Origin: Desulfobacteraceae bacterium
GTDB lineage: Bacteria; Desulfobacterota; Desulfobacteria; Desulfobacterales; Desulfosalsimonadaceae
DNA: 64,000 bases
Direction: 5' to 3'
Assembly (NCBI GenBank): GCA_011389935.1
Contig: JAABTJ010000014.1
Location: 1-64,000, forward strand
The notes beneath the pieces are model-generated. The model had not been told where the DNA came from and searched no databases. It saw only the letters and a list, made by a program, of their open reading frames with translations. This document shows, piece by piece, positions 1,933 to 58,288 of this stretch. Both the position numbers and the translations under genes were made by a program. How positions within the stretch are numbered: position 1 is the stretch's first letter; every line of letters starts with the position of its first letter.

Positions 1933-2010
1933 ACGGGGTGCCGGGGAATCGCCGATGAATCGGGCATCCATCGCAACTGTACGGAAATTTTTCTTTATCC
2001 CGTAAACGAA

Positions 2011-3402
2011 ATGCGTGCCATGAATCAAAACAGGATACTGATTGTTGATGACCAGGCCAATATGCGTCACATGATGTCCGTATTGCTTACGGATGCCGGG
2101 TATGTCGTGGATGAGGCGGCGGATGGGGAGGAAGCCCTGCGCAAGGTAAGGAAGCATTCGTACAATTACATTTTTTGCGATATAAAAATGCCGAAGATGG
2201 ATGGTATGACGTTCATGAAATCTGCCGGCGCAGCGCTGGATCAGACCAGCGTCATCATGATGTCCGCATACGGCAGCATCGATATTGCAATTGAAGCCAT
2301 GAAGCTTGGTGCATATGATTATATTTCCAAGCCATTCAAGCCGGATGAAATCCTGCTTACGCTGAAGAAGGCTCATGAGCGGGAGGTGTTAAAAGCAGAA
2401 AACACCGTATTGCGCCAACGCATCGAGGAGATCGAGGGCTCTCACAGTTTTGGTGACATGGTGGCAAAAAGCAAATCCATGCAGGATGTGTTCAAATTGT
2501 CCGCTAAGGTGGCGCAATATGACACCACGGTTCTGGTGACCGGACAGAGCGGAACAGGCAAGGAGCTGATTGCCAAGGCGATCCACTACAGTAGCAAACG
2601 GAATAAAAAGCAAATAGTTCCGGTAAATTGTGCAGGCATACCTCATAATTTACTTGAAAGCGAGTTGTTCGGGTATAAAAAAGGGGCATTTACCGGCGCG
2701 GATCGTGATTACGGTGGATTGTTCGAGGCAGCGGAAGGCGGAACGCTTTTTCTGGACGAAATTGGGGATCTCCCGTCGTCTTTGCAGGTGAAGCTTTTGC
2801 GGGTGCTCCAGGAAGGTGAAATCCGTCCCCTGGGCGCCTCCGAATCCAGGGTCGTGGATGCCCGGATTGTTGCCGCAACGTCCAAAACCCTGGAAGAGGA
2901 AATTAAAAATGGAAATTTCCGGGAGGACCTGTATTACCGGTTGAACGTCATGTCGATTCACCTTCCTCCGCTGGCGGAACACAGTGAAGACATTCCATTG
3001 CTGTGTCAGTTTTTCATGGATCGCTATAACCGCAAATTCGGGAAGGCCGTCCAAACCATTTCCCCCGCCGCAATGTCCATGCTCCTTGAATATCAATGGC
3101 CAGGCAATGTCCGGGAGCTGGAAAACATGATCGAACGTGGCGTGGTTCTCGCAGAAGAGCAGGAGCTGGGACCGGAAAATTTTCCAATCCATTTGCAGTC
3201 CGCCAAAATGAATCGGGGGGAAGGCGGCGAAAATGTTTTTGCAGGTTTTTCCCTGAAAACGGGAAAGGTGCGACTGGAGGAGGCAATGATCCGGAAAGCG
3301 CTTGCAAAAACCGGGGGTAACAGAACCCAGGCGGCAAGGCTGCTTGAAATAAGCCATCCTTCCCTGTTGGGCAAGATAAAGCGCTACGGGATTGACGAAT
3401 AA
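2011..3402 (+). CDS. Sigma-54-dependent response regulator (NtrC family)
   Basis: A 463-residue protein with the full NtrC layout. The receiver domain (~7-118) has phospho-acceptor Asp57 in CDIKMPKMDG and the acidic pair Asp13/Asp14. The AAA+ sigma-54 interaction domain (~150-385) has Walker A GQSGTGKE (~178-185), the sigma-54-contacting GAFTGA loop at 225-230 and Walker B GGTLFLDEIGDL. A Fis-type helix-turn-helix lies at the C-terminus (GGNRTQAARLLEISH, ~432-446). It should activate sigma-54 promoters after phosphorylation, most likely by the adjacent upstream kinase. Two start codons are possible (2011 or 2020); neither has a strong ribosome-binding site. Target genes are not evident here. 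Confidence 0.93.
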   Translation: MRAMNQNRILIVDDQANMRHMMSVLLTDAGYVVDEAADGEEALRKVRKHSYNYIFCDIKMPKMDGMTFMKSAGAALDQTSVIMMSAYGSIDIAIEAMKLGAYDYISKPFKPDEILLTLKKAHEREVLKAENTVLRQRIEEIEGSHSFGDMVAKSKSMQDVFKLSAKVAQYDTTVLVTGQSGTGKELIAKAIHYSSKRNKKQIVPVNCAGIPHNLLESELFGYKKGAFTGADRDYGGLFEAAEGGTLFLDEIGDLPSSLQVKLLRVLQEGEIRPLGASESRVVDARIVAATSKTLEEEIKNGNFREDLYYRLNVMSIHLPPLAEHSEDIPLLCQFFMDRYNRKFGKAVQTISPAAMSMLLEYQWPGNVRELENMIERGVVLAEEQELGPENFPIHLQSAKMNRGEGGENVFAGFSLKTGKVRLEEAMIRKALAKTGGNRTQAARLLEISHPSLLGKIKRYGIDE

Positions 3403-18705: not shown

Positions 18706-18717
18706 GTGCACTAAAAC

Positions 18718-18874
18718 GGATAGCTTCGTAAAAAGTCCAATATCTGCGTTGCGCTTCATCTTGAGAAATTTTACGTACAGCCAACCAAGTACGCTCAATT
18801 CCTCAAGATTCGCGCGCCTTGATCTTGAACTTTTTTCTTTGCCATCGAAAAAACGACTTTTTACGAGCCCATCA
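18718..18874 (+). repeat. MITE-like palindromic repeat, copy 1 (long form)
   Basis: 157-bp copy of a four-member family. It shares GCTTCGTAAAAAGTCCAATA at the left and CGCGCCTTGATCTTGAACTT plus CGACTTTTTACGAG at the right. It is flanked by direct AAAC (18714-18717 and 18875-18878). The arms in its middle differ from the other copies but in a paired way that keeps the stem (ATCTTGAG on the left, CTCAAGAT on the right, where the others have CTTTGAAG and CTTCAAAG). It lies between the acyP terminator and the HU stop codon. Confidence 0.88.
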
Positions 18875-18893
18875 AAACTGAAGTAAAAAACAA

Positions 18894-40205: not shown

Positions 40206-40250
40206 TCCGTATTGTCATCGCACCGACCGACAGAGCAGTAAACCAAATGA

Positions 40251-40404
40251 TGACGGCTTCATAAAAAGTCCAATATCTGCGTTGCGCACAATCTTTGAAG
40301 AATCTCACGTACGGCTAAGTACGCTCAATGCTTCAAAAATTGCACGCGCCTTGATCTTGAACTTTTTACTTTGCCGTCCAAAACCAATTTTTACGAGTTC
40401 ATCA
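40251..40404 (+). repeat. MITE-like palindromic repeat, copy 2 (long form)
   Basis: 154-bp copy. Left end TGACGGCTTCATAAAAAGTC, internal arms CAATCTTTGAAG and CTTCAAAAATTG, right end TTTTTACGAGTTCATCA. Direct AATGA flanks it (40246-40250, 40405-40409). It lies between the panE stop and the panE terminator, so it would be transcribed with panE. Confidence 0.9.
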
Positions 40405-40421
40405 AATGATTGTAGCGCAAT

Positions 40422-41608: not shown

Positions 41609-41664
41609 TGGGTGGCTATCTTTCTTCAACCGGTTAGTAGGGCGGAATTTGGATCCGGAAAGAT

Positions 41665-41819
41665 TGACAACTTCGTAAAAAGCCCAATATCTGCGTTGCG
41701 CACAATCTTTGAAGAATCTCACGTACGGCTAAATACTCTCAATTCTTCAAAAATTGCACGCGCCTTGATCTTGAACGTTTTACTTTGCCGTCCAAAATCG
41801 ACTTTTTACGGGCTCAACA
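41665..41819 (+). repeat. MITE-like palindromic repeat, copy 3 (long form)
   Basis: 155-bp copy. Left end TGACAACTTCGTAAAAAG, right end CTTTTTACGGGCTCAACA, internal arms CAATCTTTGAAG and CTTCAAAAATTG. Direct AGAT (41661-41664 and 41820-41823) flanks it exactly. The right AGAT abuts the stop codon of the minus-strand Cys-rich gene, and the left end lies just upstream of the yfaZ-like gene. Confidence 0.9.
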
Positions 41820-41823
41820 AGAT

Positions 41824-42015
41824 TCAAGACTCAAGAAAGGGATGGCGTCCGGTGCAAGACACTCCCTTTGCCAGCGTTACTTGGATTTCCTCCAGAACGC
41901 GGCACTGGTCCATGCACTCCGGAAAATCTTCCCTGCGCGGGCACCCCTTGCAGGGGCTTTTTGCCAAATACCCGATATCAAAATCAAATACATTCCTGAT
42001 AATCATTATTGTCAT
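41824..42015 (-). CDS. Small Cys-rich conserved protein
   Basis: A 63-residue protein with a metal- or disulfide-like cysteine set: SPCKGCPRREDFPECMDQC (four cysteines in a PCxxC..C..C pattern) and a fifth in KGVSC. Start ATG 42015 is preferred because AGAGG lies nine bases upstream. I recall similar anonymous proteins in Desulfobacterota with KSPCxxC followed by a helix (CRVLEEIQ), but no named family. It is on the same strand as the YfaZ-like gene, from which the repeat separates it. Confidence 0.62.
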   Translation of the reverse strand: MTIMIIRNVFDFDIGYLAKSPCKGCPRREDFPECMDQCRVLEEIQVTLAKGVSCTGRHPFLES

Positions 42016-58049: not shown

Positions 58050-58080
58050 CAAGGGTCGGAAAATCCCCGGGAAACAGAAT

Positions 58081-58209
58081 TGACGGCTTCGTAAAAAGTC
58101 CAATATCTGCGTGGCGTACAATCTTTGAAGAATCTCACGTACGGCTAAGTACGCTCAATCCTTCAAAGATTGCACGCGCCTTGATCTTGAACTTTTTACT
58201 TTGCCGTCA
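58081..58209 (+). repeat. MITE-like palindromic repeat, copy 4 (short form)
   Basis: 129-bp copy, the clearest palindrome: it begins TGACGGCTTCGTAAAAAGTC and ends AACTTTTTACTTTGCCGTCA, with inner arms CAATCTTTGAAG and CTTCAAAGATTG perfectly complementary. Direct GAAT (58077-58080 and 58210-58213) flanks it exactly. It lacks the ~25-bp right extension of copies 1-3. It lies 31 bp after the uvrC stop, where no ordinary terminator is seen. Confidence 0.92.
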
Positions 58210-58288
58210 GAATTTTCTTCTGCCTCCCGGGTCGCGTATAAACATTCACAGGACGGAGGATCAATACCGCTTTTGCAACGAGGCTTTG

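Follow-up and report, generated by a model that had tools for sequence, protein, structure and literature searches.

The palindromic repeat that occurs four times in the window, the whole stretch of 64,000 nucleotides analysed here, is in all probability a gene-less MITE that moves by cut and paste and is mobilised in trans by the transposase of an IS of about 1.9 kb related to IS1182. At the sequence level, mobility is indicated by the copy number, the conservation of the ends, the 6-bp duplications, the empty sites in congeners and two insertions that end at an inner repeat, and the partnership by the ends and the target common to the MITE and the IS. In the proposed mechanism, the transposase would recognise the terminal repeat GAYGRNYTCGTAAAAAGTC at both ends of the element, namely the left end L and the outer right end R2; the element would be excised and then inserted into the AT-rich intergenic hexamer AAWWTT, duplicating it. 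The inner arm R1 may be similar enough to a terminus for occasional use as the right end, which would yield the 127-bp short form seen in copy 4 of the window.

Boundaries, target and insertion sites

The repeated unit in fact spans about 153 bp, from GACGGCTTCGTAAAAAGTCC to GAGTTCATC, with a modal length of 152-153 bp; its target-site duplication (TSD) is 6 bp, sometimes 7 bp, with the consensus AAWWTT. When 115 complete copies were aligned on their conserved ends, flank identity reached 71-87% at every position in register 6 and was typically 15-45% in other registers, two register-7 positions standing at 70-76%, partly from the 7-bp cases. The target consensus over these copies was A(91%) A(68%) N N T(70%) T(96%). 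Among the 93 testable copies of the own genome the hexamer was repeated exactly in 53 and at five or more of its six positions in 69, the expectation being 14.6 when hexamers were exchanged (shuffled) between copies. An earlier note on this DNA had recognised flanking direct repeats, which do exist, but had given them 4-5 bp; as the outer A and T of the hexamer are nearly fixed, its terminal T and A were assigned to the element and the duplications came out too short. The element has terminal inverted repeats (L GACGGCTTCGTAAAAAGTC versus R2 GATGAACTCGTAAAAAGTC) and no coding capacity, in the modal or the 127-bp short form, only chance ORFs crossing the copies.

All four related non-coding copies reported for the window were recovered (Table 1). 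They do share one orientation there, but no meaning attaches to it, since genome-wide 69 copies are forward and 57 reverse. The copy that had been taken as representative, copy 4, is atypical, being the short form; the other three, like nearly every copy outside the window, carry 26 bp more, up to a second right end, TTTTTACGAGTTCATC. Copy 1 is flanked by an acylphosphatase-like ORF and an HU-like gene, both named by reading translations rather than by family search, copy 2 lies between a ketopantoate-reductase-like gene and the gene of a small helix-hairpin-helix protein, and copy 4 separates uvrC from a malate/lactate dehydrogenase gene (mdh); copy 3 is intergenic and adjoins a minus-strand ORF. 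In a crude ORF-based count 89 of 93 copies fell outside ORFs, 26 between convergent, 39 between tandem and 24 between divergent genes, with 4 inside ORFs, so that placement is intergenic in general and not specifically at gene ends, as had been supposed. The flanks are AT-rich (45% GC, versus 52% for the window).

Table 1. Positions of the four MITE copies, their ends and their target duplications in the window
Feature	Position	Strand	Remark
MITE copy 1, full form (155 bp)	18719..18873	+	diverged subfamily (GATAGC... / GCCATC)
Target duplication of copy 1, left	18713..18718	.	AAAACG (5/6 match to right)
Target duplication of copy 1, right	18874..18879	.	AAAACT
MITE copy 2, full form (152 bp)	40252..40403	+	with outer right end R2
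Target duplication of copy 2, left	40245..40251	.	AAATGAT (7 bp)
Target duplication of copy 2, right	40404..40410	.	AAATGAT
Outer right terminal repeat R2 of copy 2	40386..40403	-	GATGAACTCGTAAAAATT, minus strand; cf. L262 IS end GATGAACTCGTAAAAAGTC
MITE copy 3, full form (153 bp)	41666..41818	+	
Target duplication of copy 3, left	41660..41665	.	AAGATT
Target duplication of copy 3, right	41819..41824	.	AAGATT (exact)
MITE copy 4, short form (127 bp)	58082..58208	+	L to inner arm R1, no outer right end
Target duplication of copy 4, left	58076..58081	.	AGAATT
Target duplication of copy 4, right	58209..58214	.	AGAATT (exact)
Left terminal repeat L of copy 4	58082..58101	+	GACGGCTTCGTAAAAAGTCC; matches IS ends
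Inner right arm R1 of copy 4	58190..58208	-	GACGGCAAAGTAAAAAGTT, minus strand; serves as element end

Each of the four sites is empty in at least one congener. G001, G002 and G004 have nothing of the element in their uvrC-mdh gap; the sites at 40251 and 41665 are empty in G001, where synteny is conserved around copies 2 and 3, and neither G001 nor G003 has the element at the site of copy 1 (18718). The copy 1 gap of G004 carries an element at a different insertion point, which is read as an independent insertion, and its copy 2 gap shows a weak degenerate match, with another element between the next two genes. As these comparisons are between species, they speak for lineage-specific insertion and not for current activity. 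A different palindromic repeat, ACAAGCTTATCTCAAAA...TTTTGAGATAGCTTGTAAT, was observed in L382 (contig C101 of G001), in the gap next to the HU-like gene that corresponds to the copy 1 gap of the window.

Nested right ends and the hairpin

From its left end, L (GACGGCTTCGTAAAAAGTCC), the element continues with two conserved blocks, AATATCTGCGTTGCGC and then GCGCCTTGATCTTGAAC, set on either side of a palindromic and variable centre. The inner arm R1, which reads TTTTTACTTTGCCGTC or TTTTTACAAAGCCGTC and is complementary to L, comes next; the outer terminal repeat R2 (GACTTTTTACGAGTTCATC) lies 26 bp farther outward. Because R1 is the complement of L, the element is a long palindrome in which L pairs with R1; L and R2 abut the TSD in nearly all copies. 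The near-palindrome described earlier for copy 4 is genuine, with predicted folds of -53 kcal/mol on the plus and -70.5 kcal/mol on the minus strand against -24 and -28 for shuffled sequences. This copy is without R2, and its L and R1 are immediately flanked by an exact AGAATT duplication. Both ends were scored in 225 copies; an exact duplication was found at R2 in 92 and at R1 in 2, the latter being copy 4 and one insertion in L127. A deletion of R2 would have had to stop precisely at the duplicate, which would be coincidental; the simplest reading therefore appears to be two nested right ends, of which the inner R1 is usable. With two usable right ends, how IS1182-like transposases recognise ends would become a question that can be tested directly. 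Some copies (L326, L306, L160, L168) have an extra block of about 23 bp, GCGGCTTACGCCTTGTAGACATA, in the palindrome loop, which is common to several genomes.

The non-palindromic core CCAATATCTGCG / GCCTTGATCTTGAAC is kept across an order. It may be speculated, although we consider it rather unlikely, that this core and the nested R1 and R2 reflect a control of end choice by the element itself, a transposase or host factor that recognises the hairpin, or a minus-strand RNA; any of these would explain the exceptional success of the element across Desulfobacterales. Improbable in our estimation is the proposal that selection acts on the hairpin, the element being retained for a role, at least at present, as a structured RNA (terminator, mRNA-end stabiliser or small RNA) and owing only its origin to mobility. 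The minus-strand transcript of copy 4 has a z-score of -12.2, the minus strand gives the stabler of the two folds in 97% of 226 copies and forms about three times the number of G-U pairs found on the plus strand, the terminal bases of L and R1 co-vary between subfamilies beyond 1000 permutations, and the arms pair better within copies than between them. However, the strand excess of G-U shrinks to 97:75 (31:19 columns) in 21 diverse representatives and comes partly from a single column with a family-wide fixed state, and on 33 diverse copies, in a gappy alignment, RNAalifold returned no consensus pairs. Moreover, no promoter or terminator signal was found around 58082, no Rfam family scored above its gathering threshold, the insertion sites are not common to congeners, and orientation relative to neighbouring co-directional genes is random (20:19, from crude ORF calls). 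Since the copies have a common ancestry, the fold, G-U and covariation signals are suggestive but non-independent, and an RNA function stays a minority reading that is not established. An Rfam match to a eukaryotic miRNA model was set aside, being far below threshold and reflecting only a long hairpin.

The candidate partner and rival mobilisers

The mobile-element reading was followed to a candidate partner in relatives, an IS of 1.88-1.92 kb with an IS1182-like DDE transposase of 530-620 aa (DUF772 + DDE_Tnp_1_6 + DDE_Tnp_1), the ends GATGGNCTCGTAAAAAGTC (for example GATGGTCTCGTAAAAAGTC / GATGGACTCGTAAAAAGTC in full-length copies) and an AAWWTT duplication. A search of 389 genomes from the order gave a homologue of this transposase in 66. 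The loci were reached through weak matches to the ISNCY_1 model in relatives, where a transposase gene is bracketed by MITE-type ends; above-cut-off ISNCY_1 matches were rejected as partners because their ends differ, and a direct search of the loci for transposons bounded by terminal inverted repeats gave mostly chance pairs of neighbouring MITEs. About half of the IS loci examined are flanked by an exact AAWWTT-type duplication of 6 or 7 bp, the IS ends having been chosen partly by their duplication from at most 4 candidates per side; the 6-bp cases include AATCTT (L260), AATTTT (L264), AAAGAA (L266), AATTAT (L337), AAAGTT (L338), AAGATT (L344), AACCTT (L352) and AAACTT (L357), and the 7-bp cases AAAACTT (L262) and AAGTGTT (L348). 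The right end of the L262 IS, GATGAACTCGTAAAAAGTC, is the common form of the MITE R2. MITE and IS agree in ends, duplication length and target; their likeness is limited to the terminal 19 bp or so, and the MITE body is thus not a recognisable internal-deletion derivative of the IS. The mover would presumably be the IS1182-like transposase itself and not another of the same specificity.

The partner resembles the IS1182 family (NCBIfam NF033551; Pfam DDE_Tnp_1_6 + DUF772) in its domains and in a nearly full-length match to the family model, at 148-163 bits (E about 1e-43 to 1e-47), which is below the curated cut-off of 270 bits and makes it a divergent IS1182 relative rather than a certified member. 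The ISNCY_1 model gave 48-79 bits on the same protein (cut-off 325). The ISDol1 subgroup, whose founder comes from Desulfococcus oleovorans (Desulfobacterales), comprises elements of 1.6-1.9 kb with 6-7 bp duplications. By this description the partner IS presumably resembles the ISDol1 subgroup of ISNCY, which we take as a lead. ISDol1 has been described as an ISNCY subfamily (PMC8147514).

The remark in the earlier note that no transposase in the window could mobilise the copies holds, and extends further: no homologue of the partner was found in the own genome or in five congeners, and no DDE_Tnp_1_6 protein was detected in the own genome, so that MITE and partner were not seen to reside together in this genus. 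The MITE may be an orphan in its genome, or the IS may be missing from a draft assembly that is 94% complete, multi-copy IS being presumably easily lost from such assemblies; the partner would accordingly have been lost from this genus or from its assembled sequence. Among 60 genomes, the MITE is present in 13 of 16 transposase carriers versus 33 of 44 non-carriers, which is no strong association. No close relative of the transposase was found on plasmids, the best match reaching 35% identity. At two places (L258:125-132 in G012, with AAATTT, and L264:3257-3461 in G036, with AATTTT) the IS adjoins a MITE-like element, one hexamer being common to both ends, as if IS and MITE-like elements repeatedly inserted at each other's target hexamers.

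Two other mobilisers were weighed against the IS1182-like one. REP/REPIN-type palindromes spread by a Y1 (RAYT/TnpA-REP) transposase would account for a high copy number, palindromic and intergenic repeats and CGTC in the ends, and the genome does contain two Y1_Tnp genes (RAYT-like, about 345 aa), in L389 (C12, about 2000-3100) and L390 (C33, about 87700-88900). Yet the MITE copies have clear 6-bp duplications, which Y1 transposases are not known to make. In addition, both Y1 genes are bracketed by a different long inverted repeat with GGGGACGCCC or a close form of it, unrelated to the MITE, no MITE copy lies within 1.5 kb of either gene, and the MITE ends match those of a DDE-transposase IS, all of which makes a Y1 origin very improbable. 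Members of the IS1634 family produce 5-6 bp duplications, a length that fits, and relatives carry many IS1634 genes; a MITE of such an element is nonetheless scarcely credible, given that the own genome has no match and that the termini beside the IS1634 genes of relatives are unrelated in sequence.

Spread and relation to known elements

With a 27-base core and up to 3 mismatches allowed, at least 126 copies were counted in the own assembly (2.84 Mb in 58 contigs), the reversed control pattern giving 0. Related copies occur in 46 of the 60 genomes of the group examined, and among named contigs of a public collection the exact 22-base core was found almost only in Desulfobacterales / Desulfobacteraceae MAGs. 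No copy was found in plasmids. Identity to the nearest neighbour among own copies has a median of 97% and a maximum of 99.2% among distinct sequences, which suggests an amplification neither ancient nor very fresh. The exact core also lies on two viral-classed IMG/VR contigs (L387, L388), for which prophage insertion or host contamination is possible.

Chunjie, from Geobacter uraniireducens, is a prokaryotic MITE of 178-235 bp with 38 copies bearing TIR and DR (PMC10969869). The present element is like it in being short, non-coding, intergenic, high in copy number and bounded by terminal repeats and duplications, with a hairpin predicted to be stable, and its assignment as a MITE by the definition given there appears well supported, every feature that sequence can test having been found. 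By description it differs from Chunjie in its own terminal sequence, its AAWWTT 6-bp target, its larger number of copies and its nested second right end. Nearly the same in size, and likewise non-autonomous and of IS1182 type, are the MITEs of Methanosarcina acetivorans partnered by ISMac2, of 160-169 bp and 7-14 copies (PMC3852290), whose record means that this kind of element is already known. Their direct repeats measure 4 or 0 bp, as against 6-7 bp in the present element; those MITEs reside in another host domain, the present genome holds more than 100 copies, and the present partner falls below the NCBIfam IS1182 cut-off. The literature searched yielded no description of the present family, of its 6-bp AAWWTT target, of the partner in Desulfobacterales or of the nested right end.

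The further copies throughout the genome, the empty sites in sister species and the transposase with matching ends in relatives bear out the MITE reading of the earlier note. With its boundaries and target defined and a transposase proposed for it, the dispersed repeat can now be annotated. Donor IS and far more successful non-autonomous passenger would constitute a natural system for comparing the two. The repeat also explains some assembly breaks: several draft contigs start or end inside a MITE copy, in the own genome (C11, C20, C21, C41, C42, C52) and likewise in G019 (C38, C40, C70, C87, C118), so that it seems to limit assembly. A second related palindromic element, GATGGCGTCGTTAAAAGTCCCATCTACTGC..., with similar layout and ends, was observed in the own genome at L013:1662-1800 (C6) and L045:81-217 (C22), and probably represents a sister MITE family.
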